Of a stretch of DNA of 21,940 nucleotides, positions 3,411-17,909 are shown piece by piece. A program made the translations under genes and the position numbers. Under the pieces are notes generated by a model that worked only from the letters and a program-made list of their open reading frames with translations, was not told the DNA's origin and searched no databases. Each line of letters opens with the position of its first letter. Within the stretch, counting starts at the first letter, position 1. Source of the DNA: a virus. The stretch lies in IMG/VR virus record IMGVR_UViG_3300020433_001289, positions 1 to 21,940 of that record, one strand, 5' to 3'.

Positions 3411-3599
3411 TTATTTTAACCATCTTATTTGACTCTCTATCATATCAGCATAATGATTTAAGTATGAATTAGGTCCTGCTGTCTTGTCTCTCATCCAACC
3501 GACAATTGTCTCTAGTTGTTCAACAGCAAGATCTCTATTAGTTTTGACTTTTTTTAAGTCTTCAACTGGTAAAGTAATTCCAAGTTTTTCTAAGCTCAT
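3411..3599 (-). CDS. Small unknown protein (62 aa)
   Basis: This 62-residue protein is predicted helical: MSLEKLGITLPVEDLKKVKT, then AVEQLETIVGWMRDK and HYADMIESQIRWLK. No family is recognised. It starts behind GGAGGTCAAGTA at an ATG that shares a base with the stop of the ArdC-N-like gene (TAATG), so the two form a translationally coupled pair under promoter-leader copy 2. Coupling suggests a partner role for the upstream protein, but this is inference. Its stop codon abuts promoter-leader copy 1. Confidence 0.7.
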   Translation of the reverse strand: MSLEKLGITLPVEDLKKVKTNRDLAVEQLETIVGWMRDKTAGPNSYLNHYADMIESQIRWLK

Positions 3600-3898
3600 T
3601 ACTTGACCTCCTTGATAGAAGGTCTTTTACCTATTTTTTTCTCGATATCTTCGAGATCAAAAACTGAAAACGGGATAGGTTTCAATTCAACCTTACCAGT
3701 TTCTTCGTTAGTTTCTTTTTTATATCTATACAAAGTAGCAGCCTTAGTAAGACCTTTCATAGTAGAACCAGAAACACCTTCTAGGTACTTGATAGCTTGT
3801 TTAAAAGTAACAAAATAGCAAGATTCGTCAAAACCTTCAGAACCTAGGATGTCCCAGTTCTTACCAGTATATGTTTGTTTTGTAATGTAATTTATCAT
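3599..3898 (-). CDS. ArdC N-terminal-like ssDNA-binding domain protein
   Basis: The product has 99 residues. The pattern TYTGKNWDILGSEGFDESCYFVTFKQAI, a loop with a short hydrophobic strand AATLYRYKKE, and the ending IPFSVFDLEDIE matches the N-terminal domain of ArdC antirestriction proteins ('Y.G.N..L... yfvTFkQa ... V.y ... pf.vFn..qi'), which binds single-stranded DNA. The C-terminal HExxH metallopeptidase domain of full ArdC is absent, so this is a stand-alone N domain. It could protect or coat incoming or replicating DNA. I start it at the ATG at 3898, 5 nt after AAGGAG; a GTG at 3904 overlaps the Shine-Dalgarno itself and is unlikely. It is transcribed from promoter-leader copy 2. The family call is from pattern memory and is moderately sure. 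Confidence 0.6.
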   Translation of the reverse strand: MINYITKQTYTGKNWDILGSEGFDESCYFVTFKQAIKYLEGVSGSTMKGLTKAATLYRYKKETNEETGKVELKPIPFSVFDLEDIEKKIGKRPSIKEVK

Positions 3899-3971
3899 AA
3901 TCACTCCTTATTTTAAAATTAATATCTCTCTATTATACTATTGTCTCACAATATCTTTATAAAGTCAACAG
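3899..3971 (-). repeat. Promoter-leader repeat, copy 2
   Basis: Second copy of the cassette. On the minus strand: CTGTTGAC (3971-3964), TATAAT (3937-3932) and the leader core GAGATATTAATTTT followed by AAGGAGTGA, leading to the ATG at 3898. It differs from the other copies by an extra 5 nt or so before the TATAAT, giving 25 nt between hexamers instead of 20. A classical sigma70 17-nt spacer is therefore not conserved, while the CTGTTGAC and the leader are. Confidence 0.75.
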
Positions 3972-3995
3972 GGAAACTAAAAAAAAGTTCCCTGT
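3968..3995 (-). terminator. Hairpin downstream of the 99-codon gene
   Basis: The inverted repeat ACAGGGAA / TTCCCTGT (8 bp) encloses a 12-nt loop that contains a T8 run on the minus strand. It lies 8 nt after the stop codon of the gene at 4004 and runs straight into the CTGTTGAC of promoter-leader copy 2. It could terminate or insulate the upstream unit; there is no T-run after the stem, so efficiency is uncertain. Confidence 0.4.
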
Positions 3996-4003
3996 AAAAT
4001 CAA

Positions 4004-4303
4004 CTAGATATAATTACTCCAATATTCATTCCACATCCAACTTACATGGATGATTAGTCTTTGTCCAGTAATTTCTGTATTATACTGATCTAACTTTACG
4101 TCTTCAGTAATATAACAAACACTATTGTAAGTCTCTAGGAAATCTTTAATGTATCCTTTCCATTCTTCTATGCTCTCACACTCACCAATAGATTGCTCAG
4201 CAAAATGCATGAAGTTTTCATAATCAGCATTATAAAGACCAAGTGCGTTATCAACTTGCTTAGGCTTCATTTCATAAGGTTTTTTTGGATCAATTTTCAT
4301 CAT
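4004..4303 (-). CDS. Small acidic unknown protein (99 aa)
   Basis: The 99-residue product is acidic and aromatic-rich, with ENFMHFAEQSIGECESIEEWKGYIKDFLETYNSV in the middle and IIHVSWMWNEYWSNYI at the end. No family or catalytic motif is recognised. It starts behind AAGGAGTGAGAAT in promoter-leader copy 3 and is followed by a hairpin, so it appears to be a single-gene unit. Its promoter architecture is shared with the ArdC-N-like gene and with the small-gene run, so it is probably expressed at the same time as they are. A host-takeover or antidefence role is possible but unproven. Confidence 0.7.
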   Translation of the reverse strand: MMKIDPKKPYEMKPKQVDNALGLYNADYENFMHFAEQSIGECESIEEWKGYIKDFLETYNSVCYITEDVKLDQYNTEITGQRLIIHVSWMWNEYWSNYI

Positions 4304-4374
4304 ATTCTCACTCCTTGTTAAAAAATTAATATCTCTCTTATTATAGTCTCATATTATCGAAATAAAGTCAACAG
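4304..4374 (-). repeat. Promoter-leader repeat, copy 3
   Basis: Third copy. On the minus strand: CTGTTGAC (4374-4367), TATAAT (4345-4340) 20 nt after TTGACT, then the leader core GAGATATTAATTTT and AAGGAGTGA before the ATG at 4303. The TGA inside CTGTTGAC is the stop codon of the agmatinase gene, so the promoter overlaps the end of the polyamine cassette. Confidence 0.75.
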
Positions 4375-5159
4375 CTATTTGAAATTTTTCTTAATATTTC
4401 ATAACAAAGTTTAGCTACTACAAAATCATATGCTTCTATACCTTTTATTGGTGCAAACTCAACTATATCAACTGCAACTATTTCATTATATTTAATTAAG
4501 CTATCTAATAAATGCATAGTTTCATTCCACATATAACCACCAGGCTCTGGTGTTCCTGTAGCTGGCATTAAAGATATATCAAATGCATCTACATCAAATG
4601 TTAAATATAACTTTTTGTTTTCTGGTATAGTATGTCTGAATATTCTGTGTGAATTTTTCTTTATATATTGTTCTTCCTCTTTACTTGTGTTTCTTATTCC
4701 AAATCTATACAAGTTTGTTTTATTATTCATTTCTAAACATCTTCTCATAGCACATGCATGACTATCTTTGGTTCCATCATATTCATCTCTAAGATCACTA
4801 TGTGCATCAAACTGAAGTATGTCAACACCTTCATTAGCCCAAGGTTCAAATAGTGTTGGAGTTAAACTATGATCACCACCTAATGTCATAATAAATTTAC
4901 CTTCATCTTTACCTGCTTTAACCATTCTTGATAACTCAGGTAATCCTGTAGCATATGCTTGACCTATAAGACTAGTAAATGTATGTATTTTTAAGTTGTC
5001 AGGATATGGATGAAGTTCAACTTGTTGACTTGCTTTTAGAATAGCTCTTGGACCATTTCTTGTTCCTCTTCCATAAGATACTCCAGCTTCTTTTGGATAT
5101 GGTATTATAAGAGTATTAGACTCATTATATTTGTATTTTTTAACTCCTAAAAAGTTCAT
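4368..5159 (-). CDS. speB: Agmatinase / arginase-family ureohydrolase
   Basis: This 263-residue ureohydrolase most likely hydrolyses agmatine to putrescine and urea. The binuclear manganese site is complete: H97 in GGDHS, D118, H120 and D122 in DAHSD, and D189/D191 in FDVDAFD, followed by MPATGTPEPGG, which is conserved in the family. DSHACAMRR (132-140) supplies the substrate-side histidine block. The length is a little shorter than bacterial agmatinases (about 300), with a short N terminus. The ATG at 5159 lies behind GAGGAGG and 20 nt inside the end of the deoxyhypusine-synthase-like gene. It is the third gene of a polyamine cassette, which favours agmatinase over arginase or formimidoylglutamase. 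Its stop codon lies within promoter-leader copy 3. Confidence 0.9.
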   Translation of the reverse strand: MNFLGVKKYKYNESNTLIIPYPKEAGVSYGRGTRNGPRAILKASQQVELHPYPDNLKIHTFTSLIGQAYATGLPELSRMVKAGKDEGKFIMTLGGDHSLTPTLFEPWANEGVDILQFDAHSDLRDEYDGTKDSHACAMRRCLEMNNKTNLYRFGIRNTSKEEEQYIKKNSHRIFRHTIPENKKLYLTFDVDAFDISLMPATGTPEPGGYMWNETMHLLDSLIKYNEIVAVDIVEFAPIKGIEAYDFVVAKLCYEILRKISNSC

Positions 5160-6147
5160 GTAGTTTCCTCCTCTTCCTATTTTTTAAATCAGAATTATGA
5201 TATGCATAATTTGCTATAATAGGTAGAGTGCTTGTAGCTTCTCCATAAACCATTTGAGTATTACTGTTATCAACCTTTCCCCATGAAGTTGCTTCATCTA
5301 AAGTAGAACTTGAACAAGCTCCATCTCTTACATCTGCAACTGTAAGTTGTATTGCGTATTGATGCATTGGTACTCTATGACCAATTGCTTCTGCAGCTAC
5401 AACTACATCTTGAGCAAAGTTTTTAGGTACACCACCACCTACCATAAACAAACCTGTATTTTGAGATTCAACTTTCAAATAAGTCAACTCTCGTAAATCT
5501 TTAATGCTATCTATAACAACACAACCATCTGGATTATCTGTTTGATGCATAAGTAAACCAATTCCAGCTGCACTATCATTCAATGCTGGACAAAATATTG
5601 GTACATCTTCTTTATAGCATTCTTGAACTAAACTATTACTTGTTCTTGTATGCCAACCTAATAAATTTAAAAACTCTCTTGAACTTTGTATCTTCCATGA
5701 ACAATTTTTATCTGCAAAGTCTTTAATAAAATTATCAACTTGTTTTAAGTCATCTTCAGAAATATAAGTATCGTATATTCTATCAATATATTCTTCTCTT
5801 AAAATATTATCATCTGCTTTACTAGAACCTATATAATGTTTGTTACCTAAACCTTCAAATAAATCCATATCTATAATAGATGCACCTGTAGCTACTATAA
5901 CATCTACCATATTATACTTAACTAAGTCTCTATATAATTGTAAACATCCAGCTGCTTGTGTTGAACCTGCAATAGTTAATATTATAGATAAATTATCATC
6001 TTCTAACATTTCCTTGTATAACTGACAACTGTTATATATTTCTCTTGAAGTAAATGAGGTTGACTCCATTTGATCAACCATATCTGTAACATTAAACTTA
6101 GAAATGTCTATATGTTTAACTATCTTTTTTAATGAATGGTCTATCAA
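5140..6147 (-). CDS. Deoxyhypusine-synthase-family protein (probable homospermidine-type synthase)
   Basis: This 335-residue member of the deoxyhypusine synthase family is NAD-dependent and transfers an aminobutyl group from a polyamine to an acceptor amine. Family blocks are present: STSFTSREIYNSCQLYKEML, LTIAGSTQAAG, VDVIVATGASI, GWHTRTSNSLVQECYKEDVPIFCPALNDSAAG, GGGVPKN (237-243), and the active-site lysine K291 in SWGKVDN, matching SWGK of the eukaryotic enzyme. Bacteria and phages have no eIF5A, so the acceptor is more likely a free amine such as putrescine, giving homospermidine or a related polyamine. It starts at TTG (6147) behind AAGGA with 8 nt spacing, because no ATG occurs before residue 23, and overlaps the SpeD-like gene by 32 nt. 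Family assignment is firm; the exact reaction is inference. Confidence 0.88.
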   Translation of the reverse strand: MIDHSLKKIVKHIDISKFNVTDMVDQMESTSFTSREIYNSCQLYKEMLEDDNLSIILTIAGSTQAAGCLQLYRDLVKYNMVDVIVATGASIIDMDLFEGLGNKHYIGSSKADDNILREEYIDRIYDTYISEDDLKQVDNFIKDFADKNCSWKIQSSREFLNLLGWHTRTSNSLVQECYKEDVPIFCPALNDSAAGIGLLMHQTDNPDGCVVIDSIKDLRELTYLKVESQNTGLFMVGGGVPKNFAQDVVVAAEAIGHRVPMHQYAIQLTVADVRDGACSSSTLDEATSWGKVDNSNTQMVYGEATSTLPIIANYAYHNSDLKNRKRRKLHELFRS

Positions 6148-6481
6148 TTAACTGTTCCTTTTTACTATAGAAGTTATGTTTCTTTAACACTTCTAAAACT
6201 GTATCTACATTATACTTCTTACAACTATAAATGTCAAGCTGAAAATGACCATTATCCCAAGTATGTAATATTATATGACTTGTTGTTATAGCTGTCATCA
6301 TAGTATAACCTTCGTTTCCTTCATCATCACATCTTGATGTATATGGACCACTTAATATTTTCATATCAAGCTCTTTTATGAGATCATCATTCATATCATT
6401 AAGTCTTGGCCAAGGCCAACACATTTTATTGATCTCGTCAAAATGTCCTGTAATAATTAGATGTTTATGTAGAAGATCCAT
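6116..6481 (-). CDS. speD: SpeD-family pyruvoyl-dependent decarboxylase
   Basis: The 121-residue product belongs to the prokaryotic S-adenosylmethionine decarboxylase (SpeD) family, which self-cleaves to make a pyruvoyl cofactor. The core ITTSHIILHTWDNGHFQLDIYSC carries the three catalytic residues: S68 (pyruvoyl precursor), H73 and C87; the spacing from S to H matches SpeD of Thermotoga. The residue before the cleaved serine is T67 instead of the usual Glu. Some SpeD homologues are known to have become arginine or ornithine decarboxylases, and the agmatinase two genes downstream with no spermidine synthase in view makes arginine decarboxylation attractive here. I choose the ATG at 6481 (opening MDLLHKHLIITGH, as in SpeD) with AAGGA upstream; an upstream ATG at 6550 would overlap the glycosyltransferase by 86 nt. 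Confidence 0.85.
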   Translation of the reverse strand: MDLLHKHLIITGHFDEINKMCWPWPRLNDMNDDLIKELDMKILSGPYTSRCDDEGNEGYTMMTAITTSHIILHTWDNGHFQLDIYSCKKYNVDTVLEVLKKHNFYSKKEQLIDRPFIKKDS

Positions 6482-7490
6482 CCTTTGATAATCCTTGTAA
6501 TAATAATTCCCATTCCTTTGCTCTAAAGTTCCAACTATAGAAGTTATCAAAATAGTTCTTTTGAACTTCCAACTGGTTTTGCCAGTTTTGTTGTTCTTTC
6601 ATTATATTGATAGTATTATTTAAAATACTTGCAAACCTATTAACATGTTTTTGACCATCTTCTGTATATTGATACATGCTTGCAAAGTTAGCACACGTTT
6701 CTGGTAATGCACCTAAATTATTTGTAACAGTTAAACATTTTGCACTCATAGCTTCTATTGCTGCTATACAAGATGTTTCAACCCATATACTTGGAAATGC
6801 AAATATATGAGCTCTACCTAGTGCTTCCATAACTTTATCATGTTGTTGAAAACCATGATAAGTTATCTGTGGATGATTATTACAAGTTTCAAAAACTTGC
6901 TTATATTGTTCGTCTCTATGTTTCCATCCATAGATTTCAAAACTACTGAATACATCTAAGTGAATATTTTTATGTTCTTTACATAAGTATTCAAATACTG
7001 GTATAAGTAATTCTAAACCTCTATGTGGAGTTGTATGATAAATTAATCTGATTTCGTCTTTAACATTTGGTTTATCTATAAGGTTTGCAGGTATTGGATC
7101 TATAGCATTTTTCATAACTATACCTTTATCAAAAGGAACACCTAAACCTAAATGAAAAGTATGCATTTGATAGTTACTAACAAAAACTAATTTTTCAAAT
7201 CTTGATAAAGAACTATCATCTTTAAGATGTTGATTCTCTGGATCATTCCATAAGTCATGTAACCATAAGATTCTTTTCTTATCTTCTAAGTCTCTTACTC
7301 TACTACAAATTAATTGAAAATTATCTAACAGTTTTGGATCCAACTCTTTTTTGAGTCTATCAAACATTCTCTCAGTACCACCTTGACTCTTAGACCAGGT
7401 ACCACTGTTAGTCATTTTATTATCACCTAAAGAAAACTCTTCTTCTTTCTGTGCTTCTTCTAATCCAGTTATGTTAAGCTGTGTTGCCAT
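6465..7490 (-). CDS. GT4-family glycosyltransferase (group 1)
   Basis: This is a 341-residue GT-B fold glycosyltransferase. The C-terminal nucleotide-sugar domain shows RLIYHTTPHRGLELLIPVF (149-167), YHGFQQHDKVMEALGRAHIFAFPSIW (211-236) and the E-x7-E motif, E238 to E246 in ETSCIAAIEA. The N-terminal acceptor domain is short; WLHDLWND and LVFVSNYQMHTF are family-typical. The first 30 residues look disordered. The donor and acceptor are unknown; phage DNA bases, host surface glycans or virion proteins are all possible. It starts behind AAGGAGATAGTAA and overlaps the end of regA by 17 nt and the SpeD-like gene by 17 nt, so it is part of the same polycistron. Confidence 0.88.
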   Translation of the reverse strand: MATQLNITGLEEAQKEEEFSLGDNKMTNSGTWSKSQGGTERMFDRLKKELDPKLLDNFQLICSRVRDLEDKKRILWLHDLWNDPENQHLKDDSSLSRFEKLVFVSNYQMHTFHLGLGVPFDKGIVMKNAIDPIPANLIDKPNVKDEIRLIYHTTPHRGLELLIPVFEYLCKEHKNIHLDVFSSFEIYGWKHRDEQYKQVFETCNNHPQITYHGFQQHDKVMEALGRAHIFAFPSIWVETSCIAAIEAMSAKCLTVTNNLGALPETCANFASMYQYTEDGQKHVNRFASILNNTINIMKEQQNWQNQLEVQKNYFDNFYSWNFRAKEWELLLQGLSKDGSST

Positions 7491-7905
7491 TTACTATCTC
7501 CTTTTCACCATTTTTTTTACCAATATTATACTTTGCAGTTAAGTTCCATTGATCCTTTTCTTTGAAAGGTAAGACCTTAATCTGACTTATAGGAGCGATA
7601 GGTTGTTTAGATAAATCTGGTGTTACCAGTTTAAGTAATCCCCATTCTGCTAATAAATTTGCTATTGTGTTTCTTCTTGAGATATCACTTTCAGAAAAGT
7701 TAGAAGGTTTACCATCAAGGGCAAACAACTCTTTGAAATGTACTATGAAGTATCTTCCTTGTTTATGTAATATGTGACATGATTGATATAATGTCTTATC
7801 TTTTCTTGATGCAACTCCAATCCTTGTTAGAGTCTCTCTGACTTTTAGAAAATCATCACCTTCGTTAAGTTTCACTTCAATCATATTGTCTGTGTCAATT
7901 GTCAT
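7474..7905 (-). CDS. regA: RegA translational repressor
   Basis: This is the T4 RegA homologue, an RNA-binding protein that represses early phage mRNAs by covering their translation initiation regions, including its own and clamp and loader genes in T4. The sequence from MIEVKLNEGDDFLKVRETL through IGVASRKDKTLYQSCHILHK, YFIVHFKELFALDGK and RRNTIANLLAEWGL aligns throughout with T4 RegA. It is longer than T4 RegA (143 versus 122 residues), with a lysine- and asparagine-rich C-terminal extension and 7 extra residues at the start. The ATG at 7905 has AAAGGTGG upstream and overlaps the gp62 stop (ATGA); residue 8 is where T4 RegA begins but it has no ribosome-binding site. It lies directly after gp62 as in T4. 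Confidence 0.95.
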   Translation of the reverse strand: MTIDTDNMIEVKLNEGDDFLKVRETLTRIGVASRKDKTLYQSCHILHKQGRYFIVHFKELFALDGKPSNFSESDISRRNTIANLLAEWGLLKLVTPDLSKQPIAPISQIKVLPFKEKDQWNLTAKYNIGKKNGEKEIVNGNTA

Positions 7906-8276
7906 TTCACACCACCTTTATTTAATTTCTTTCTAATAATATTTAAATGTTGTTCTGATAATAATGATAGAGCAACTCTTGCCTTATCGTTATTACAACT
8001 ATAATATTCTTTAATCAGTTGTATATCTTCATTATCTTGTTTCTTATCCCATTTCTTAAATCTCTTTCTGGGACGTATTCTATTTATCAAATAGTCATAT
8101 TGTAATTTATTATCTACGTGATGTCTTGTATTCATCTCATTAGCTAACAAAATACAATCTATAAACTGAGACAAAGCTCTGTTAGTTATAAATGGACTAT
8201 ACATTCCTTCTATAGTACCATCCATAGATATATTTTTCTTATATGTTATACTGTTAATAAAGTCAAAAGGTTTCAT
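7902..8276 (-). CDS. 62: Clamp loader small subunit gp62
   Basis: The 124-residue protein sits exactly where T4 gene 62 lies, between gp44 and regA, and shows the family pattern: ITNRALSQFIDCILLANEMN in the middle (T4 MVENALSQFPECMPAVYAMN) followed by DYLINRIRPRKRFKKWDK (T4 NYLMAAVPRGKRYGKWAK). It is shorter than T4 gp62 (187 residues), as is usual in marine T4-like phages. It forms a complex with four gp44 subunits and loads gp45 onto primer-template junctions. The ATG at 8276 follows AAGGTAG and overlaps the upstream stop by 4 nt. Confidence 0.88.
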   Translation of the reverse strand: MKPFDFINSITYKKNISMDGTIEGMYSPFITNRALSQFIDCILLANEMNTRHHVDNKLQYDYLINRIRPRKRFKKWDKKQDNEDIQLIKEYYSCNNDKARVALSLLSEQHLNIIRKKLNKGGVK

Positions 8277-8419
8277 CTACCTTGCCTTCTGTATTTCTTA
8301 AAAGATCTTTTTTTATGTTTGTTCATAGTTGCCATCTTTACTTTTCCTCTACCAATAGATGTTCTCTTTTTAGTAGGTTCAAATACAGATGTAATATATG
8401 ATTTTGCTTTCCTTGCCAT
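8273..8419 (-). CDS. Small highly basic protein between gp44 and gp62 (48 aa)
   Basis: This 48-residue reading frame opens MARKAKSYITSVFEPTKKRT and ends NKHKKRSFKKYRRQGR, with about 18 Lys/Arg and very few acidic residues. Its ATG shares a base with the gp44 stop (TAATG) and its stop overlaps the gp62 start (ATGA), so the three genes are coupled. I recall similar short basic proteins ending in KxYRxQGR at this place in marine T4-like phages, but no function is known to me. A nucleic-acid or loader-associated role is plausible from charge and context only. Confidence 0.8.
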   Translation of the reverse strand: MARKAKSYITSVFEPTKKRTSIGRGKVKMATMNKHKKRSFKKYRRQGR

Positions 8420-9354
8420 TATTTAAACTCACATTCTATCATTATAGTTGTCAAACATGCAACCAGGTTAATCTCTTGATCTGCAACAAAAGCACTTTTA
8501 TATTGATAGTCAGCTATAGTAGTAACTAAGATAGGTATAGTTTGTTCCTTCATATTACTATTACAACTATCATATAACCTTCTGTATATTGTTGTTGGAT
8601 CGTTGTCTAAGTTCTCTGCCACCCATTTCCTCATCTGATTAAATTCTTTTTTCTTTAGAGCTTGTATTAAAGTATTGAAGGATCCATCACTCATATGAGT
8701 TAAGATACCAACATCTATCTTTCCATTACTACTATATCTCTGTAACTCATTAATAACTCTTCTCCAGTCAGGAAAATGTTTCATAATAAGTTCAGCTATA
8801 ACATTATCTGTATACTGTATATTCTCTTTCGTAAGAATATCTTTAACTCTTTTCATAAACTGACTTGCAAGTTTAGGTTTATCTTGTTTAGATATATTGA
8901 ACTCTACCATACTACATCTACTATGTAAAGGTTCTATAATTCTATTCTTATAGTTTGCAGTTAAAATAAATCCACAGTTCTTACTATATTCTTCCATAAA
9001 GTTTCTCAAAGCAGGTTGAGTACTTTGAGGATTAAGATAATCAGCTTCATCTAAGATAACAAACTTTCTACTACCATTTAAACTAACTGTACTTGCATAA
9101 CTCTTTATATCATTTCGTAAAGTATCAATACCACCATTCATACTTCCGTTAATAATCATAAAGTCAGATCCTACTTCATCTAACATAGCTTTAGCAGCTG
9201 TTGTTTTTCCAACACCAGGACCACCAGATAAAAGTAAATTAGGTATACCATTATCAATAAAGTTTTGAAATGTAGATTTTAAATCAGCAGGTAAGACAGT
9301 ATCGTCTATCTTCTTAGGTCTATATTTTTCTGTCCAAAGAAAGTTATCTTTCAT
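8419..9354 (-). CDS. 44: Clamp loader ATPase subunit gp44
   Basis: This 311-residue AAA+ ATPase powers loading of the gp45 sliding clamp. It opens with the typical FLWTEKYRPKKIDD, has Walker A GGPGVGKTT (44-52), Walker B VILDEAD (99-105), sensor 1 ILTANYKNRI, and the SRC motif carrying the arginine finger (SRC, 145-147). The C-terminal collar domain follows from about residue 225. The length matches T4 gp44 (319). The ATG at 9354 has AAGGAAGTAATT upstream and overlaps the gp45 stop by 11 nt. In T4 this initiation region is a RegA target. Confidence 0.97.
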   Translation of the reverse strand: MKDNFLWTEKYRPKKIDDTVLPADLKSTFQNFIDNGIPNLLLSGGPGVGKTTAAKAMLDEVGSDFMIINGSMNGGIDTLRNDIKSYASTVSLNGSRKFVILDEADYLNPQSTQPALRNFMEEYSKNCGFILTANYKNRIIEPLHSRCSMVEFNISKQDKPKLASQFMKRVKDILTKENIQYTDNVIAELIMKHFPDWRRVINELQRYSSNGKIDVGILTHMSDGSFNTLIQALKKKEFNQMRKWVAENLDNDPTTIYRRLYDSCNSNMKEQTIPILVTTIADYQYKSAFVADQEINLVACLTTIMIECEFK

Positions 9355-10024
9355 AATTACTTCCTTGTTCTACAGGAGCCCAATATTTAATTTTATTGTA
9401 CTTGCTCGAGAACTCAACAATCATACCTGGATCAGATATAATAGAAACATCATAACTATGTGGAAGTAATTTTATATTGTCAACTGATAAGATATACTTA
9501 AAGCTAGTATCCAACATTGTTTCTCCTACTTTCTTTGTAAAGTTATTACTTGTAGGATTCTTTGGATCTCTTGCTGTTATAACTATCTCTTGTTTATCAG
9601 CTTCACTTTCAACAACAATATTAGGTAGCTGCATTACACTTGCAGCTTGTATCAAACTCTTAACATCACTTTCTGTTAAGTTAAAACCTAATGACTTTTG
9701 AAACTCAGGTGTAACATCTTTAGGTGCAACTATCATATCTTTATCAGTATAATAATAGTTACTAGAGCTTTCACCACTACTAATCGTTACATGATTTTCT
9801 TGAAAGTCAAAATCAGGATCTTCAAATAAACTTACAACACTTAAAAATTGGTTCAAGTCATAGATCCCAAACTCAAAAGGAAACATCTCATCTACAACAG
9901 CTTGTGCAGCTATCGTACTAAGAGGACTCTTTGTTCTTATTGTACTACCAGTTCTAAATAATATTGACTGGTTTATACTACTAAAATTTTTAAGAATCTT
10001 AATAGTATTATCACTAATTTTCAT
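9344..10024 (-). CDS. 45: Sliding clamp gp45
   Basis: This 226-residue DNA polymerase processivity factor has the length of T4 gp45 (228). It forms a trimeric ring on DNA, tethers gp43, and in T4 also activates late transcription through gp33 and gp55. Recognisable segments are the N-terminal NTIKILKNFSSINQSILFRTG, FPFEFGIYDLNQFLSVVSLF (T4 FGIYDLNGFLGILSLV), and the C-terminal KYWAPVEQ (T4 FYFAPA-like end). It starts behind GGAGTTATATT and begins the classic block 45-44-62-regA. A 15-nt gap separates it from the upstream glycosyltransferase gene. Confidence 0.96.
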   Translation of the reverse strand: MKISDNTIKILKNFSSINQSILFRTGSTIRTKSPLSTIAAQAVVDEMFPFEFGIYDLNQFLSVVSLFEDPDFDFQENHVTISSGESSSNYYYTDKDMIVAPKDVTPEFQKSLGFNLTESDVKSLIQAASVMQLPNIVVESEADKQEIVITARDPKNPTSNNFTKKVGETMLDTSFKYILSVDNIKLLPHSYDVSIISDPGMIVEFSSKYNKIKYWAPVEQGSNYER

Positions 10025-10039
10025 AATATAACTCCATAC

Positions 10040-10909
10040 TTACTTTTGCTCAGGTGCTAAAGTTTTTTTATTTCCAGCTATCGCAGCTGGATCAGCTGTA
10101 GCAGCTGCACCAATCTGAGCTAAGTCAGTTAGACTACCACCAAACATATATGCACCTTGGTGAGTCAATTTCATCCATGGACACATCCATATCTTTAGTC
10201 CAATCTTTCTTCCCCATTGACAGAACATATAATCTTCTGACAAATATCTATTAGAATCAGGACATATAACAGTATCAAAGAAAGCAGTTATCTGTCTTGT
10301 TCCATCAAAATGTTTAGTTCTAATATGATCAGGTTTATATAATAACTCCGGATATGCTTTTGCATACTTTTCGAGAGCACTTCTTTGTACCATCATAAAA
10401 CCTGTACCACCTTCTAACACTTCTGCAGGTTCGTTAACTCTAATCTCAGTTACACCTTCAACAGGATTGAATACATAATCACCTACATACTTTTCTAACT
10501 TGTTAGGATTCTCATCAGCAAAACCTCTATCAACAGCTCTCTTAATCTTTTCCCAAGATATAGTTTTCTTAGGATAAGGACCACATACTATATCTTTATC
10601 TGTTCCAGGTTCAGCTAGAGCAGCTAAAGCTAAAACATCTTGTGGATCAAAACCAATATCACTATCAATAAACATCAAGTGTGTAGCTTTAGATCTCAAG
10701 AATTCATCTACAAGATAATTTCTTGCTCTTGTTATTAGACTTTCGTTAAACAAATAAAAGAAAGATATCTCTAAACCATACTTAGCTCCAAGTGCAGATA
10801 GATCTGCAGTGGACTTACAATATTGACCACCACACATTCCTCCATACATTGGAGTGGCAACAAAGATTTTTCTTTCTCTTAACTTTTTTATATCAATGCT
10901 TATTTCCAC
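10040..10909 (-). CDS. GT-A type glycosyltransferase-like protein
   Basis: The 289-residue product looks like a GT-A fold glycosyltransferase. Residues 14-24 (KIFVATPMYGG) form the first strand, ITRARNYLVDEFL precedes a DSD metal and nucleotide-sugar motif at 82-84 (LMFIDSDIGFD), VLEGGTGFMMVQR is the middle GG-strand, and YLSEDYMFCQWGRKIG carries the catalytic-type acidic pair. The C-terminal 30 residues are alanine-rich and probably disordered. Donor and acceptor are unknown; modified phage DNA or host glycans are both possible. It uses a GTG start at 10909 behind GGAGAAATAA, and overlaps the dUTPase-family gene by 17 nt. The following gene is gp45. Confidence 0.8.
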   Translation of the reverse strand: MEISIDIKKLRERKIFVATPMYGGMCGGQYCKSTADLSALGAKYGLEISFFYLFNESLITRARNYLVDEFLRSKATHLMFIDSDIGFDPQDVLALAALAEPGTDKDIVCGPYPKKTISWEKIKRAVDRGFADENPNKLEKYVGDYVFNPVEGVTEIRVNEPAEVLEGGTGFMMVQRSALEKYAKAYPELLYKPDHIRTKHFDGTRQITAFFDTVICPDSNRYLSEDYMFCQWGRKIGLKIWMCPWMKLTHQGAYMFGGSLTDLAQIGAAATADPAAIAGNKKTLAPEQK

Positions 10910-11408
10910 TTATTTCTCCATATTTGTTATCGTGTTGTTTTCCTATACCATAGCTGCCATCATACATTGATAAAGTCTCTGCTTCAAACAATATAAACTG
11001 ACCGACTCTAGTTCCTTTTTTTATTTTAGCTGGACCGACTCGTACATGTAAACAACCAGCCATCACTCCGTGATAACCACTATCATATAGTCCGCTTGTA
11101 ATAAATAATCCGTTTCTGTTTAACGTTGATCTTGTGATTACATAACCAGCATACCCTTCACCAACGCTTACAATATTTTCCATAACAATCTCATAAGTAC
11201 CTCTTGCAAGATTAAACCATCCTTCTTCGTCAGGTTGTACTTCTACAGATCCTCTATGTGTTTTAGTTTCTTCGCTTATGATGAAAGGTTCTTTTTTATT
11301 GATCTCAAAGATCTTATTGATCCTCAAGTCGACAGCATTAGGTTGACTGTCTCCTTCCTGAACATTTGTTAACTCACAATCATTTGTCTTGCTCAGTATA
11401 TGTTTCAC
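10893..11408 (-). CDS. dUTPase / dCTP deaminase family protein
   Basis: This 171-residue protein of the trimeric dUTPase/Dcd superfamily would keep dUTP low and supply dUMP for thymidylate synthesis. The Dcd-like N-terminal QPNAVDLRINKIFEI, the RSTLNRNGL phosphate-binding loop and YDSGYHGVM (dUTPase motif III, with the catalytic-type Asp) are present, followed by IKKGTRVGQFILFEAET. Which of the two reactions it performs cannot be settled by eye; motif III favours dUTPase. I start it at GTG 11408, which has GGAGG 5 nt upstream; the ATG at 11420 has no ribosome-binding site. It overlaps the DUF3310 gene by 29 nt. T4 uses an unrelated all-alpha dCTPase-dUTPase (gp56). Confidence 0.82.
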   Translation of the reverse strand: MKHILSKTNDCELTNVQEGDSQPNAVDLRINKIFEINKKEPFIISEETKTHRGSVEVQPDEEGWFNLARGTYEIVMENIVSVGEGYAGYVITRSTLNRNGLFITSGLYDSGYHGVMAGCLHVRVGPAKIKKGTRVGQFILFEAETLSMYDGSYGIGKQHDNKYGEISGNKH

Positions 11409-11676
11409 CGTGTCCTCCATAATGTAATGCTAATATAGCATAATGTATAATCTTTAGTAAGTCTTTTTTATTCTTACCATCTTTCTTTCCATATCTCATA
11501 GCATACTTAACGATAGTACCTAAGCACATCTCTTCTGCTATACCCATAGATTCCCAAACATCTAATGTTTGAGTCTCTTTCTTACCAACATAATGTTGAC
11601 CATATGTACTCTTTATATAATCAAAACTATCGTCTAGTAAATTATCTTCATTGTATTTAAACTTATGCGACTTCAC
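11380..11676 (-). CDS. DUF3310-family protein
   Basis: The 98-residue protein has the DUF3310 pattern: YVGKKETQTLDVWESMGI, then LGTIVKYAMRYGKKDGKNKKDLLKIIHYAILALHY. Members are common in phages and sometimes fused to nucleotide-metabolism proteins, but their function is unknown; an association with nucleotide kinases has been suggested. It begins at GTG 11676 directly after a stop codon in its own frame, overlapping the dpdA-like gene end by 14 nt. No good Shine-Dalgarno is at the usual distance (AAGGAG is 15 nt away), so translational coupling is likely. Confidence 0.8.
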   Translation of the reverse strand: MKSHKFKYNEDNLLDDSFDYIKSTYGQHYVGKKETQTLDVWESMGIAEEMCLGTIVKYAMRYGKKDGKNKKDLLKIIHYAILALHYGGHGETYTEQDK

Positions 11677-12580
11677 TTATTTGATCTTCCACTCCTTGTT
11701 TCGCTTCTAAGCCCCAGAGATATGCATATACTAACTTGTCAATATAATCCATATTCTCTTTAGCTAGATTAATAAAAAAATCATTATCTTCTTTATCTTG
11801 CTCTGGATTGTGATTAAAGTCAACAGGTACATGAAATTTTCCATGAAGTAATCCACCTGGTGTATCATCATATCCATAACCATTTAATCCATGCCAGATA
11901 GCACTACTACTATCCCATGTATCAACAAATCTTTTGAAAGGAGCCATAAACTGTATCTCATTAGGACCATCAACCATTCCTAAGAAATGTAACTTCTGAT
12001 TATTCTTTTTTATACCTCCTAGCAAACCATACTCTGCTAGTTTGTACATCATGTGTAATCTTGAATTGAATCTATGTAATGAAGGTTCGTGTCCAAACGG
12101 TTCAATGCCATATGCATTAGGCACAGCAAGAATACTATAGCCAATATAATCAACCAACCCTGGATTTTCAGTAGCCCATCTAAAACATTCAATATAATCT
12201 TCTTTATCATTCTTCTTTCCTTGAGGTACAAAGAAAGTCTTTATACCTGCTTGTTTAAATATAGGTGCTTGTTCTTTAGCTGCTTCAATAGTTTTCTCAG
12301 AAGACTCACCTGGATAATCTGTCATAACAGCATAGTCAGCATCTATTCGTTTCGCATAATGAACTATCTCTTCACCAGTAAGATAGCCTTTACCTTCTTG
12401 TGTAAATTCAAAGGCACTGTTATCCATAATGATAATGGATCCATTCTTTTTTTCTTCTTTATAAAAATTAGTGTATTGCTGATTATCTACAAGATGTGCA
12501 AGAGTCAAATGGACTTCTCTACCTTTAGTAAGGTGTAGATAATTTATTGGTGCTATGTGACAGAAATGTGTCTTCGACAT
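11663..12580 (-). CDS. dpdA: TGT/DpdA-like enzyme (7-deazaguanine insertion into DNA)
   Basis: The 305-residue TIM-barrel-type protein resembles tRNA-guanine transglycosylases and their phage DNA paralogue DpdA, which swap guanine in DNA for a 7-deazaguanine base. Visible blocks are IIIMDNSAFEF (D53, the TGT general-base position), DADYAVMTDYPGESSEKTIE, VDYIGYSILAVPNAYG, LHFLGMVDGPNEI (198 onward) and FVDTWDSSSAIWHG (D220, D223, candidate nucleophile region). It lacks the C-terminal zinc-binding motif of tRNA enzymes. FolE, QueD and QueE are encoded upstream, which strongly supports the DpdA reading. I place the start at ATG 12580: a TTGACA-17-TATTAT promoter lies so close that upstream ATGs at 12616 and 12589 would be at or before the transcription start. 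Confidence 0.75.
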   Translation of the reverse strand: MSKTHFCHIAPINYLHLTKGREVHLTLAHLVDNQQYTNFYKEEKKNGSIIIMDNSAFEFTQEGKGYLTGEEIVHYAKRIDADYAVMTDYPGESSEKTIEAAKEQAPIFKQAGIKTFFVPQGKKNDKEDYIECFRWATENPGLVDYIGYSILAVPNAYGIEPFGHEPSLHRFNSRLHMMYKLAEYGLLGGIKKNNQKLHFLGMVDGPNEIQFMAPFKRFVDTWDSSSAIWHGLNGYGYDDTPGGLLHGKFHVPVDFNHNPEQDKEDNDFFINLAKENMDYIDKLVYAYLWGLEAKQGVEDQISEVA

Positions 12581-12587
12581 ATAATTC

Positions 12588-12619
12588 ATAATATACCTTT
12601 CAAATGTTAATGTCAACAG
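12588..12619 (-). promoter_or_regulatory. Consensus sigma70 promoter for dpdA-like gene
   Basis: On the minus strand, TTGACA (12616-12611) and TATTAT (12593-12588) are exactly 17 nt apart, a near-perfect sigma70 promoter. The -10 ends 7 nt before ATG 12580, so the transcript should start on the ATG. The CTGTTGAC octamer shared with the three promoter-leader repeats spans 12619-12612, overlapping the -35. Confidence 0.7.
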
Positions 12620-14014: not shown

Positions 14015-14695
14015 TTAACCACTTCTAGCTAAGTTTAAGAATTCTTTTCTAGTCTCAGAATTTTGAGTAGCAAATACACCACCAACAGATAATGTAACTG
14101 TACTACTATTCTGATCTTGTATACCTCTACTTTTAACACAAAAGTGTTTAGCATCAATATACACTGCTACATCATTAGTCTGTGTTACATACTGAATGGT
14201 AGCTCTAATCTGTTCTGTTAATCTTTCTTGTACTTGAGGTCTCTTACTAAAGAACTGAACTATTCTATTCAGTTTAGATAAACCCAATAGTTTTCTATCT
14301 GGTAAGTAAGCTACTGTAGCTAAACCATCAATAACAATATTATGGTGCTCACAGGTACTTTGTACATTAATATTTTTCTCTAATAAAAAAGATCCATTAT
14401 TCTTCATCTTATTCTCTATAGCTGTACACTTAGGAAAGTTAGCATAGTTTAAACCAGAAAAGATCTCATTTACATACATCTTAGCAACACGACTAGGTGT
14501 ATCACATAATGAATCATCTGTTCTATCTAAACCTAATATATCCATAATCTCAGCATGATGTTTTGTAATCTTTTCTATCTTAACATCACTTGACTCCTTA
14601 ACAGCTTCTGTTGTAGGTGTCTCCAATCCTTCTTTAATTAAGAACTGATGTACTTCTTTTCCTAAACTAGGATCTGATTTATAACTTGGGTGCAT
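14015..14695 (-). CDS. folE: GTP cyclohydrolase I (FolE)
   Basis: This 226-residue enzyme converts GTP to 7,8-dihydroneopterin triphosphate, the first step toward both folate and 7-deazaguanines. Zinc ligands are intact: C115 and H118 in TCEHH, and C186 in HFCVKSRG; H117 and H184 complete the active-site histidines. LLGLSKLNRIV and RPQVQERLTEQI are conserved blocks. The length is close to E. coli FolE (222). The first 35 residues are a variable extension. The ATG at 14695 has AAAGGAGGAG upstream and overlaps the queD stop by 17 nt. Downstream is the non-coding gap with two inverted repeats. Confidence 0.96.
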   Translation of the reverse strand: MHPSYKSDPSLGKEVHQFLIKEGLETPTTEAVKESSDVKIEKITKHHAEIMDILGLDRTDDSLCDTPSRVAKMYVNEIFSGLNYANFPKCTAIENKMKNNGSFLLEKNINVQSTCEHHNIVIDGLATVAYLPDRKLLGLSKLNRIVQFFSKRPQVQERLTEQIRATIQYVTQTNDVAVYIDAKHFCVKSRGIQDQNSSTVTLSVGGVFATQNSETRKEFLNLARSG

Positions 14696-15149
14696 ATAAC
14701 TCCTCCTTTTCTACGATAGCACTATTGGCACCATGTTCAGCACACACAACTCGTGTAACCCAACATCTATTGTTTGTTTGTTGTCTTATAAGTTTATCTG
14801 CATAGTTAAATGCATGCTCTGCAAACTTTTCTGCACCAACACCATCAAAGATTCTAACTTCTGCAAGGTCTAACTTTTCTAATTCTCTAAACTTATCCAA
14901 GAAAGGATCATTCATATCTAAACACACTTTATGATCAAACATATCTTCTAACCAACCCTTCAAAGGTCTAAGACTTCCAAAATCTACAGCCCAGTTCCTA
15001 TCATCTAGTTTCTCACAGGCAAAAGTAAAAGTAAAAGCTAAACTATAACCATGTAAAAAACGACAATGTGAATGACTTGCATTAGGTTGTCTAAACACTG
15101 CGCTTAGTCCAATGTGATGTCCATAGTGTTTCGTACTTGTGTATATCAT
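14679..15149 (-). CDS. queD: 6-carboxy-5,6,7,8-tetrahydropterin synthase (QueD)
   Basis: This 156-residue T-fold enzyme converts dihydroneopterin triphosphate to 6-carboxytetrahydropterin. The catalytic Cys (C29) and following histidine lie in HSHCRFLHGYSLAFTF; H26 or H28 and H33 are likely zinc ligands. The usual HGH motif is HGY here. RNWAVDFGSLRPLKGWLEDMFDH and the final CAEHGANSA supply the substrate-binding Asp/His and Glu positions. The pattern is that of phage QueD proteins. The ATG at 15149 has GGGAGA upstream and overlaps the phosphoribosyltransferase stop by 4 nt; a TTG at 15161 lies before the ribosome-binding site. It sits between folE and queE, as expected for the pathway. Confidence 0.9.
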   Translation of the reverse strand: MIYTSTKHYGHHIGLSAVFRQPNASHSHCRFLHGYSLAFTFTFACEKLDDRNWAVDFGSLRPLKGWLEDMFDHKVCLDMNDPFLDKFRELEKLDLAEVRIFDGVGAEKFAEHAFNYADKLIRQQTNNRCWVTRVVCAEHGANSAIVEKEELYAPKL

Positions 15150-15577
15150 TTTTTCTCCCAAGGAAAGTTTATCCAGTCATCATCATAGAACATTTCGCCA
15201 TATAAGTCAACATTAAAATGACTACTTTTTTTATTAATTAAAGCTGCTGTTCTATGAGACAACCTTCTGTTTTTAAAAATATCTGTTACAACCTTAAATG
15301 TAGTACCACTATCGTTGATATCATCTACAATAAGATACCTTGCATCATCTATAGGTTTAAATTTTGTATGATGTGTTGCTTTTTTATCTCTGAATGAGAC
15401 ACCTAATGTTTCCATAGGAAGATCTAATAAATGAGATAACATTACAGCAGGTATTAATCCACCTCTTGTAATTCCAACTATATGAGTAGGATCAAAAGAT
15501 CTTGCTCTATTATATACCTCATATACAAGATCATCAATCTTGTTCCATGAATAATTTATCTTAGACTCCGACAACAT
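15146..15577 (-). CDS. Purine-type phosphoribosyltransferase
   Basis: This 143-residue type I phosphoribosyltransferase carries the PRPP-binding motif YLIVDDINDSGTTF (about 84-97) and the N-terminal IVGITRGGLIPAVMLSHLL loop. Its size and pattern are closest to xanthine/guanine/hypoxanthine phosphoribosyltransferases (Gpt-like). A function in salvaging guanine or a related base to its nucleotide is likely. It is embedded between queE and queD, so it may supply GMP, and thus GTP, for FolE or handle guanine released by the DpdA-like base exchange. The ATG at 15577 overlaps queE by 17 nt; the ribosome-binding site (GGGGGA) is unusually close. Confidence 0.88.
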   Translation of the reverse strand: MLSESKINYSWNKIDDLVYEVYNRARSFDPTHIVGITRGGLIPAVMLSHLLDLPMETLGVSFRDKKATHHTKFKPIDDARYLIVDDINDSGTTFKVVTDIFKNRRLSHRTAALINKKSSHFNVDLYGEMFYDDDWINFPWEKK

Positions 15578-16454
15578 TCCCCCATAAGTAACAGTGAACT
15601 CTTGCCGATACTTTGTATCCTCTTTTTAAAGCCTGGGTAGCGATCTTACCCGCGACCTCTTCTTGCCCTTCCTTAGTAGCAGATACAGGCATAATCCAAA
15701 TAGGAAAGTTAATCCCATGAGCCCTAAAAGATCTAATAACATCTTCAACTTCCTCCCAACATTCTTTGGTTCCATTGACAACAAATTTAAGTTGCCCATT
15801 CTTACTTAGGTCATAATAGTTTTTGACATGCTCAGGTTTTATAGCTTTTTCTTTCTTTTCACCAGATACAGTCCTTAACTTAGGACTTACACTCCAAAAA
15901 AGCTCACCATTAACATCATTATAGTTATCTATCATAGTTACAAACCCAGCATCAAAATTAAGATCTTGTGTACCATTAGTTTCAATAGTTATACTAGGAG
16001 GTACATTTCTCTCAGCCATAAACTGGTTCATTACATCTATTATAGCTTCTTGATTATGAGCTAACATAGGTTCACCACCAGTAAAACACATATGATTATC
16101 TTTAAGTAAACCATGGTGATTAGGTCCATCTTTCATCATACATTCTACTAATCGATCGTAAATAACTTTAGCAGTTCCCTTATGTTGTAATCCTTTGAAC
16201 TTTCTTGACCAACTATAACTACTATCACAACCAAACTCAAACACAGGCAAGTCTTCTAATCTATTGAACTTTGTAGGATCAATGTCTTTAAATGGTAACT
16301 TATAAGTTGACTCATCTGTTGGATCCTTCTGTCCAAAACCATGACATTGAAGATTGCAAGCCCATAATCTCAACCACAAAGTAGGATATCCTGTATAAAA
16401 TCCTTCGCCTTGTATACTATGAAATATCTCACTATAGAGATGTTCTTTTTGCAT
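15561..16454 (-). CDS. queE: 7-carboxy-7-deazaguanine synthase (QueE, radical SAM)
   Basis: This 297-residue radical SAM enzyme converts 6-carboxytetrahydropterin to 7-carboxy-7-deazaguanine. The N terminus SEIFHSIQGEGFYTGYPTLWLRLWACNLQC is typical. The 4Fe-4S cysteines are C33, C37 and C76 (GCDSSYSW): a 38-residue insert separates the second and third Cys, where canonical radical SAM enzymes have two residues. The SAM-binding GGEP motif is in CFTGGEPML, and ETNGTQ follows. The long insert (HGFGQKDPTDES...) recurs in phage QueE proteins as I recall. The ATG at 16454 follows GAGGAGAAAGA and overlaps the deformylase gene by 23 nt. Confidence 0.92.
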   Translation of the reverse strand: MQKEHLYSEIFHSIQGEGFYTGYPTLWLRLWACNLQCHGFGQKDPTDESTYKLPFKDIDPTKFNRLEDLPVFEFGCDSSYSWSRKFKGLQHKGTAKVIYDRLVECMMKDGPNHHGLLKDNHMCFTGGEPMLAHNQEAIIDVMNQFMAERNVPPSITIETNGTQDLNFDAGFVTMIDNYNDVNGELFWSVSPKLRTVSGEKKEKAIKPEHVKNYYDLSKNGQLKFVVNGTKECWEEVEDVIRSFRAHGINFPIWIMPVSATKEGQEEVAGKIATQALKRGYKVSARVHCYLWGNVVGV

Positions 16455-16962
16455 TCTTTCTCCTCAACCTATCTAACTTCAACTTCTGTCTCTTTGCTTG
16501 ATCTAAATGAACTCTATGAGCTCTTGATGTAAAGTTTACACCTTGTAAATGATCATACTCATGTTGAAATATCCTCGCAGTTAATCCTGTTAATTTAAAT
16601 GTATCAATATTCTTTTGCCAATCAGTTATCCTTGTTCTTATCTCAACAGGTCTCTTTATCTTAATAAACAAACCAGGAAAACTTAAACAACCTTCTTCAC
16701 CATACTCTAAACCAGATGAAAAGTCAACGATCTTTGGATTGAAAGCTCCTACTATACTTTCTGGTTCACTAGGATTACCAAATACAAACATACTATATTG
16801 CAGTCCAACTTGATTACAAGATAATCCTAATCCTTTGTGTTTAATCATAGTAGCTGCCATTCTATCATATAACTCTTTTGGATCCATTGGTGGATTCTCA
16901 AAGTCAAAAGGAATAGTCTTTTGTTTTAAATATGTGTCTACTAACTTAAATGGTTCTGCCAT
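16432..16962 (-). CDS. def: Peptide deformylase
   Basis: This 176-residue metallopeptidase removes the N-formyl group from nascent proteins. All three family motifs are present: GLGLSCNQVG (44-53, usual GxGLAAxQ), EGCLSFPG with metal ligand C92, and QHEYDHLQG with ligands H134 and H138 and catalytic E135. Phage-encoded deformylases are frequent in marine T4-like phages, where they are thought to act on proteins with high turnover such as photosystem D1 in cyanophages, or generally on phage proteins. It overlaps gmd by 22 nt. Upstream of ATG 16962 only a weak GAAAG is seen, so it probably depends on coupling. Confidence 0.95.
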   Translation of the reverse strand: MAEPFKLVDTYLKQKTIPFDFENPPMDPKELYDRMAATMIKHKGLGLSCNQVGLQYSMFVFGNPSEPESIVGAFNPKIVDFSSGLEYGEEGCLSFPGLFIKIKRPVEIRTRITDWQKNIDTFKLTGLTARIFQHEYDHLQGVNFTSRAHRVHLDQAKRQKLKLDRLRRKNAKRTSL

Positions 16963-17909
16963 CTTTCTATCATTTCATCTAACATTGTTTCAAAAGTATA
17001 CTCTGGTTTCCATTTCAGAATCTTTCTTGTTTCTGAACTATCACCACATAAGTATTTTAATTCTTCGGGTCTCATAAACTTAGGGTTTTGAGTAACATAT
17101 TTATCAGGATCCAAGTCTAGCTTTTTGAATACATAAGTAACTAAATCTCTTACACTATGACTTTTTCCTGTAGCTATAACCCAGTTTCTTGCTTCTTTAT
17201 AATCCATCATTTTAATTATAGCTTTCATATAATCTTTACTATGACCCCAATCTCTTTTACTATCTAAGTTTCCAAGAACAAGTTTATCAGCTTTACCTAA
17301 TGATATCTCCACAGCTCTTTTAACAACTTTATTAGTTACAAAGTTGGATCCTCTTCTTGGACTTTCATGGTTAAATAATATACCATTTACAACAAACATC
17401 TTATATGCATTTCTGTAATGGTTTGCAATATTATATCCTAATACCTTTGCACAACCATAAGGACTAACAGGATTCATTGGTGTTGTTAATCTTTGATGGT
17501 TGTCCTTATCAACACTGTTACCAAACATTTCACTACTACTTGCTTGATAGAACTTTGCTTGTGGTGCTAAGTTTCTTGTAGCTTCTAACATATTCAATAC
17601 ACCAAGTGCATTTGTTTGTATTGTAAATGATGGTACATCAAAACTAATTCTAACATGACTCATAGCTGCTAAGTTAAATATATGAGTTGGTCTAACCTCT
17701 TTCATTATTCTATACAAAGAATGTTCATCTAACAAATCACCATAATGTGTTTTTATTTTACTATTGATATGTTCGTATCTTGTACTTTGGTTTTCTGGGG
17801 TACTTTGTCTTCTAATAATACCATGTACTTGATAATCTAAATCTAATAATAGTTCTGCCAGATAACTTCCATCCTGTCCACCTAATCCTGTAATTAATGC
17901 TCTATTCAT
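16941..17909 (-). CDS. gmd: GDP-mannose 4,6-dehydratase
   Basis: This 322-residue short-chain dehydrogenase converts GDP-mannose to GDP-4-keto-6-deoxymannose. The Rossmann NADP motif is GLGGQDG (8-14), followed by HGIIRRQSTPENQSTRYEHI, typical of Gmd. The catalytic set is S124-S126 region (ASSSEMFG) with Y151 and K155 (YGCAK). NHESPRRGSNFVTNKV and LGNLDSKRDWGHSKDYM are Gmd signatures. The ATG at 17909 has AAGGATATTCA upstream; in-frame starts further upstream have no ribosome-binding site and run into the aminotransferase gene. Its product feeds rhamnose, fucose or perosamine branches; the DegT enzyme and a fucosyltransferase-like protein are adjacent. Confidence 0.94.
   Translation of the reverse strand: MNRALITGLGGQDGSYLAELLLDLDYQVHGIIRRQSTPENQSTRYEHINSKIKTHYGDLLDEHSLYRIMKEVRPTHIFNLAAMSHVRISFDVPSFTIQTNALGVLNMLEATRNLAPQAKFYQASSSEMFGNSVDKDNHQRLTTPMNPVSPYGCAKVLGYNIANHYRNAYKMFVVNGILFNHESPRRGSNFVTNKVVKRAVEISLGKADKLVLGNLDSKRDWGHSKDYMKAIIKMMDYKEARNWVIATGKSHSVRDLVTYVFKKLDLDPDKYVTQNPKFMRPEELKYLCGDSSETRKILKWKPEYTFETMLDEMIERWQNHLS

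Follow-up and report, generated by a model that had tools for sequence, protein, structure and literature searches.

A three-gene cassette in a T4-like marine phage fragment with a predicted route from arginine to a homospermidine-type polyamine

Known systems and the phage cassette

Gene clusters that combine an arginine decarboxylase (ADC), a homologue of deoxyhypusine synthase (DHS) and an agmatinase are already known in cells, as is each of these enzyme types, and here we describe a related cassette of speD-like, dhs-like and speB genes at positions 4368 to 6481 of a 21,940-nucleotide (nt) stretch of viral DNA (IMG/VR record IMGVR_UViG_3300020433_001289; the whole stretch is called the window, and L numbers denote loci used for comparison). 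The SAR11 cluster described in passages of PMC9992855 begins with a pyridoxal phosphate (PLP)-dependent enzyme shown there to be an ADC, and passages of PMC8437039 report a dhs gene in two SAR11 strains, leaving its role open. The SAR11 cluster has the same pathway logic as the phage cassette, and its DHS homologue is 55 to 58% identical to that of the window; however, the SAR11 pathway starts with an unrelated, PLP-dependent decarboxylase that is about 390 residues long, whereas the first enzyme of the phage is a pyruvoyl enzyme of 121 residues. Cellular speDA-speB-speY clusters, reported in passages of PMC10407285 for "Ca. Marinimicrobia," marine group II/III archaea and others, hold the same three clustered enzyme types, an arginine-decarboxylating SpeD included; set beside the phage by description, they differ in being nonviral and in having a DHS homologue that is named SpeY and taken to use putrescine. 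In Thermus thermophilus, according to passages of PMC10981699, the caldomycin synthase CdmS used agmatine only, and the ureohydrolase TtSpeBap then gave homospermidine. Agmatine homocoupling followed by urea removal is also what we predict for the phage, but CdmS, likewise compared by description, is encoded on the chromosome of a thermophile, and the window protein falls under the cut-off of its family.

Viral precedents further lower the novelty of the cassette. The SpeD homologue of pelagiphage HTVC201P was assayed and is an arginine-specific decarboxylase (passages of PMC9992855); it aligns with that of the window at 32% identity, but no dhs or speB is annotated within 4.3 kilobases (kb) around its speD. 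Chlorovirus PBCV-1 has a whole arginine-to-homospermidine route but is a eukaryotic virus, with a nonhomologous homospermidine synthase and with agmatine iminohydrolase and N-carbamoylputrescine amidohydrolase in place of the agmatinase (passages of PMC9992855). Microcystis phage MaAM05 (MW495066.1) carries a polyamine cluster, speB-speE-speD-speD, with an agmatinase and SpeD homologues; by contrast, a spermidine synthase is annotated there and dhs is lacking from the 12 kb seen, which by annotation makes a spermidine route. In the passages of PMC9992855 on its 2023 BLASTP survey, neither a SpeY homologue nor a DHS was detected in viruses, and the example given of more than one polyamine enzyme in a phage is a genome with S-adenosylmethionine (AdoMet) decarboxylase (AdoMetDC) and spermidine synthase. 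Searches of openly licensed literature, preprints excluded, listed no later report of a phage DHS or viral caldomycin synthase.

Predicted pathway

We propose that the cassette encodes a route from arginine through agmatine and a bis-guanidino intermediate to homospermidine, with the agmatinase acting last and putrescine bypassed, a reading that the sequence comparisons favor to a modest degree. The SpeD-fold protein would cleave itself before Ser68, form a pyruvoyl group and decarboxylate arginine to agmatine; the DHS-like enzyme would couple agmatine into the bis-guanidino intermediate, from which the agmatinase-family enzyme would strip two ureas, leaving sym-homospermidine. Such a route does not require putrescine, and its agmatinase would follow the DHS-like step, because the DHS-like enzyme resembles CdmS in its nearest family model (NF002699) and in its pocket residues. 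A sequence-only reading of the window had drawn the pathway from arginine to agmatine to putrescine to a homospermidine-type polyamine; the complete three-gene set and the type of end product, which is common to both step orders, are supported, whereas the order through putrescine is probably wrong, the DHS-like protein being nearest to the CdmS family.

With such a cassette, a bacteriophage would possess the whole route from arginine to a triamine, and the DHS/SpeY/CdmS family would gain a viral member of the kind that the dedicated virosphere survey did not find. The presence of the cassette suggests that the supply of a homospermidine-type polyamine matters in marine phage infection. The genes are small and could serve for testing agmatine versus putrescine use by SAR11-type DHS homologues, a point left open in the passages of the SAR11 literature cited above.

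Cassette layout and conservation

The three genes lie on the minus strand as follows.

6116..6481, minus strand: SpeD-like pyruvoyl decarboxylase, predicted ADC (SpeDA type); ATG start, 121 residues; Pfam AdoMet_dc, 42.6 bits, 8.6e-11
5140..6147, minus strand: DHS-family enzyme, predicted to homocouple agmatine (caldomycin synthase-like) or to act as a homospermidine synthase; TTG start, 335 residues; Pfam DS, 5.6e-89
4368..5159, minus strand: agmatinase-like ureohydrolase (speB); ATG start, 263 residues; Pfam Arginase, 172 bits, 2.2e-50

A longer speD-like open reading frame (ORF), starting from an upstream TTG (6116-6550, 144 residues), was the form used in profile scans. The overlaps of 32 nt between speD and dhs (6116-6147) and 20 nt between dhs and speB (5140-5159) had been recognized in the sequence-only reading, and both recur unchanged in related contigs. 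Close relatives of dhs were found on 12 IMG/VR contigs (82 to 100% identity, contig L001 being nearly identical to the window); speD stood next to dhs with the 32-nt overlap in all 12, and speB followed dhs with the 20-nt overlap in all 10 contigs that extend beyond dhs, reaching the contig end in L005. The TTG start of dhs was the identical codon in 12 of 12 sequences (the window and 11 contigs), and the motif aaggaac stood just 5' of it in 10 of these 12 (all but L003 and L004). This recurrence with fixed overlaps shows that the three-gene arrangement is more than chance. Median pairwise ratios of nonsynonymous to synonymous substitution rates (dN/dS), computed on chosen subsets of sequences, were 0.22 for speD (45 pairs, 10 sequences), 0.15 for dhs (52 of 55 pairs with finite dS, 11 sequences) and 0.22 for speB (45 pairs, 10 sequences), compared to 0.15 for the clamp loader (15 pairs, 6 sequences). 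These low values indicate purifying selection and thus point to working genes. Separately, contig L011 has speB (10282-11138) as two overlapping ORFs, unlike the similar contig L010 with its single frame; the break may be an error or a real loss.

The DHS-like enzyme and the order of steps

The family model nearest to the window protein was NF002699 (caldomycin synthase, an agmatine-coupling family), with 469 bits; none of the deoxyhypusine synthase models gave more than 285 bits. The NF002699 cut-off of 500 was exceeded by two proteins from SAR11 (573 bits each) and by two from Bacteroidales (580 and 591 bits); among 14 control genomes the cut-off was passed in 3, and matches were present in 7, Thermus composti among them. 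The AlphaFold model (predicted local distance difference test [pLDDT] score, 88.9) matched DHS structures with a template modeling (TM) score of about 0.78. Lys291, the equivalent of human DHS Lys329, is invariant in the aligned DHS-like proteins, so the active-site lysine earlier read as intact is indeed in place. The window protein also keeps S62, E131, D138, E285 and K291, which match, by our correspondence of numbering, the pocket residues named for T. thermophilus CdmS. Human DHS Asp243 and Asp316 are replaced by I196 and C278, where CdmS is described with nonpolar F204 and L286; the 28 other family rows that have a residue at position 196 all show Phe. The absence of these two acidic residues was considered as a CdmS-specific mark and dropped, since both are also absent in the haloarchaeal DHS L106.

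The homospermidine biosynthesis model NF001980/PRK00770 (cut-off, 450 bits), which we take to represent the cyanobacterial, putrescine-using SpeY, gave the window protein 176.6 bits. This score bears on the main rival order, in which SpeB would first convert agmatine to putrescine and a SpeY-type DHS homologue would then join two putrescines into homospermidine. Gene content would be identical, and passages of PMC9992855 and PMC10407285 name the DHS homologues of the SAR11 and speDA clusters SpeY and derive homospermidine from putrescine. Set against this, the agmatine-coupling model outscored PRK00770 by 469 to 177 bits in the window and by 573 to 198 bits in SAR11 L013, and agmatine was the sole substrate used by T. 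thermophilus CdmS in the passages of PMC10981699. We therefore regard the putrescine order as possible though unlikely.

The ureohydrolase and the SpeD-like decarboxylase

The agmatinase model TIGR01230 gave the window SpeB 167 bits and the arginase model gave it 77 bits, and agmatinase scored above arginase also in L010 and L093; an identity as arginase is disfavored by these scores. The TIGR01230 cut-off was passed by the cassette homologue L010 (187.8 bits), while L093 (142.7 bits) lay below it. The metal ligands attributed to the agmatinase in the sequence-only reading were present as well: six putative ligands (H97, D118, H120, D122, D189 and D191) are shared by each of the 8 agmatinase-like proteins aligned, their metal-binding role being one that we presume.

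The AlphaFold model of the SpeD-like protein (pLDDT, 87.7) had Thermotoga maritima AdoMetDC (1vr7; TM score, 0.70) as its best PDB match, which identifies the predicted fold as that of class 1b SpeD. Against PDB sequences, the SpeD alignment profile gave only a weak AdoMetDC match (E value of 0.5, ranked under two unrelated matches), and a single-sequence search with the SpeD-like protein found none. S68, H73 and C87, the counterparts of T. maritima S63, H68 and C83, are invariant in all 12 aligned cassette SpeDs, and S68 is the predicted self-processing serine, with H73 and C87. All 12 carry HTWD in place of HTWP, the proline being missing also in L093, L094 and HTVC201P. HTWP was found in the phage proteins Syn1 and MaAM05_2, both above the AdoMetDC model cut-off; neither is known to have been assayed. 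According to passages of PMC10407285, a proline that we equate, from the wording there, with that of HTWP is conserved in true AdoMetDCs and not in SpeD-derived ADCs. When 18 phage SpeDs were placed in a tree, those of the window group fell among pelagiphage proteins, HTVC201P included (13 rows, 98/99), and three cyanophage proteins stood apart (99/97); the group was nearest to HTVC103P and HTVC115P (86/83, under the program's mark for firm support). Arginine decarboxylation by the SpeD-like protein, as the sequence-only reading had proposed in place of AdoMet use, thus remains probable, its specificity being an inference across the long branch that leads to the window group.

As an observation apart, phage MaAM05 (L118; MW495066.1, 246315-249093) has consecutive genes annotated as speB, speE and two SpeD homologues, with HTWP in one SpeD only; it may encode an arginine-to-spermidine route because, by the proline rule, one of its SpeDs lacks HTWP. 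MaAM05 is presumably kin to phage PhiMa05. The passages on PhiMa05 in PMC8093824 mention only its SpeD.

Points against the proposed pathway and remaining alternatives

Several observations weigh against the pathway proposed here. The window DHS-like protein, at 469 bits, and its phage homologues L093 (450 bits) and L094 (446 bits) all lie under the NF002699 cut-off of 500, and the window SpeB (167.1 bits) lies just under the TIGR01230 cut-off of 174.3. Residues 271 to 278 of the DHS-like model, C278 included, have pLDDT values of <50. Both acidic DHS residues are missing also in the haloarchaeal DHS L106 and in the DHS structure 8put, which we take to be archaeal, so that their loss does not prove agmatine use. 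The comparison with CdmS was drawn from the residue description in passages of PMC10981699 together with the family model, and that with cyanobacterial SpeY from its model. The branch to the window SpeD group is long (2.61 changes per column), and compared to HTVC201P the window protein has T66 in place of Glu and lacks three residues near the active site; because of these differences its substrate may have changed. Passages of PMC10407285 place HTVC201P beside the SpeD-derived ornithine decarboxylases (SpeDC), whose four diagnostic residues are Gln, Thr, Phe and Tyr, and the window protein has two of these residues (Thr67 and Tyr85) at the positions that we presume, from our alignment, to be diagnostic.

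These last points bear on a second alternative, in which SpeB would be an arginase, the SpeD-like protein an ornithine decarboxylase and the DHS-like enzyme a coupler of putrescine. Besides the clade position of HTVC201P and the two shared residues, the ornithine decarboxylation by five freshwater phage SpeD homologues reported in passages of PMC9992855 speaks for it. However, SpeB scores higher as agmatinase than as arginase (167 versus 77 bits), and at the presumed Gln and Phe positions the window seems to have T63 and L72; this residue test is weak because the arginine enzyme HTVC201P seems to carry all four residues. We consider the ornithine route improbable.

More improbable still is that the SpeD-like protein is an AdoMetDC which, with the other amine enzymes, boosts spermidine through a SpeE of the host or from outside the record. 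The protein belongs to Pfam AdoMet_dc, the records are fragments, and four phage SpeDs (S-PM2, phiYs40, phiN3 and P2559s) restored spermidine in Escherichia coli according to passages of PMC9992855. An AdoMetDC identity is nonetheless disfavored, as no proline follows HTW and the window protein reached 26.3 bits to the AdoMetDC model TIGR03330, under its cut-off of 75.65, compared to 129 bits for Syn1, 144 bits for MaAM05_2 and 38.4 bits for the assayed ADC of HTVC201P. The lack of a spermidine synthase, remarked on earlier for the cassette, extended to all seven viral records searched, each possibly a fragment, in which speE had no match. With no proline after HxW and no speE in these records, the cassette is probably not a spermidine pathway.

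A true deoxyhypusine synthase modifying an eIF5A-like protein, which the DHS fold and catalytic lysine might suggest, can practically be discounted, since no eIF-5a match was present in eight records (the seven viral ones and one SAR11 genome; the control matched in three archaea) and since position 243, aligned with what we take to be human His288, is Asn243 in the window and likewise Asn in each of the 38 family rows that have a residue at this position but His in haloarchaeal DHS.

Related phages and cellular relatives

A wider scan yielded three further viral loci. Two of them, L093 and L094 (contigs of 71 and 39 kb), represent a second phage lineage with the order dhs-speB-speD and the same 20-nt dhs/speB overlap; identities to the window were 66 to 67% for dhs, 57 to 58% for speB and 32 to 35% for speD. 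The third, L095, is a contig of 4.6 kb that has one phrog_455 protein; on it, the C-terminal part of a PLP decarboxylase, 77% identical to the enzyme of SAR11 L013, is directly followed by a dhs fragment. This SAR11-type pair (3531-4560) may be a separate capture of the SAR11-type pathway or a product of a chimeric contig. By tblastn, the window dhs had no match among 50,697 named phage records at E values up to 1e-5.

In a DHS tree of 34 rows, ten window-type sequences formed a clade (97/98), which together with L093 and L094 made up a larger one (100/99), while L095 grouped with SAR11 (96/92), filling only 37% of columns. Deeper placement of the phage clade is unsure because long branches meet there, as the program warns, and no donor can be named because this clade branches outside both SAR11 and Bacteroidales. 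The genome scan for DHS relatives used two short patterns and took the best 80 of 234 relatives, so that other donors may be missing. We give about even credence to the wider proposal that at least two marine phage lineages carry an agmatine-first, putrescine-free route to homospermidine through a bis-guanidino polyamine, with the first viral DHS-fold enzyme reported, that one old viral DHS clade moved between lineages with its agmatinase, and that a third fragment separately captured the SAR11-type PLP-ADC/DHS pair.

In the order to which SAR11 genome G007 belongs, 90 of 147 genomes had an NF002699 protein above the cut-off. PLP-decarboxylase, dhs and agmatinase genes occurred together in 17 of 20 loci of this order (with flanks of about 4 kb), the other 3 having no agmatinase in the stretch, and none of the 20 held a SpeD homologue; the triad was also present in 3 of 3 SAR11 contigs (L013, L019 and L023). 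The phage cassette parallels this SAR11 cluster, with the PLP-dependent ADC of about 390 residues replaced by a pyruvoyl enzyme of 121 residues; the parallel does not make SAR11 the host.

An NF002699 protein (591 bits) was also seen on a cyanobacterial conjugative plasmid (L105), near iron transport genes. Within 4 kb of this protein, the plasmid's incomplete gene table shows neither an ADC nor an agmatinase; the same plasmid (NC_007410.1) has a second, short partial NF002699 match at 159462-159605.

Genomic setting

The window represents part of the genome of a T4-like marine phage, as judged by its sliding clamp, clamp loader and SbcC-like subunit (PHROGs) and by RegA and the clamp loader A subunit (Pfam). 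Upstream of the cassette lie the following genes.

6465..7490, minus strand: glycosyltransferase; Pfam Glycos_transf_1, phrog_2170
7474..7905, minus strand: RegA translational repressor; Pfam Translat_reg, 150.7 bits; T4 core landmark upstream of the island
7902..8276, minus strand: clamp loader A subunit (gp62-like); Pfam Phage_clamp_A, 56.1 bits; T4 core landmark
8419..9354, minus strand: clamp loader (gp44-like); phrog_168, 417.9 bits; T4 core landmark
9344..10024, minus strand: sliding clamp (gp45-like); phrog_223, 223.8 bits; T4 core landmark

The cassette island is thus situated downstream of regA and of the glycosyltransferase gene, which overlaps the speD start by 17 nt and is a neighbor outside the pathway. 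Farther downstream, the related contig L011 has hsp20 and lysozyme homologues and then DNA polymerase. Pelagiphage HTVC008M has a single small gene between regA and DNA polymerase, so that the island seems to have been inserted into the replication module. The SbcC-like protein matched Methylophilales phage Melnitz, Stenotrophomonas phage DLP_6, HTVC008M and cyanophages all at 46 to 50%. A candidate promoter inside speD (12 of 12 positions of the sigma-70 consensus; 6237-6209, coding strand) was set aside, such matches numbering 45 versus 31 expected in this AT-rich stretch.

In 5 of the 12 related contigs (L004, L005, L006, L007 and L012), an extra ORF of 90 residues, MazG-like by eye, lies between the glycosyltransferase gene and speD; L008 has an overlapping ORF of 119 residues at this place, which may hold the same gene. 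Elsewhere in the window, positions 14015-16454 and 11663-12616 hold PTPS/QueD-like and phosphoribosyltransferase genes (Pfam PTPS and Pribosyltran), near a protein of 317 residues without a Pfam match; reading of the sequence leads us to presume FolE-like and QueE-like genes in the same regions and possibly a pathway for 7-deazaguanine DNA modification. At 16941-19724, genes for a GDP-mannose dehydratase and a DegT-like aminotransferase, together with two genes without a Pfam match, possibly form a surface-sugar module.

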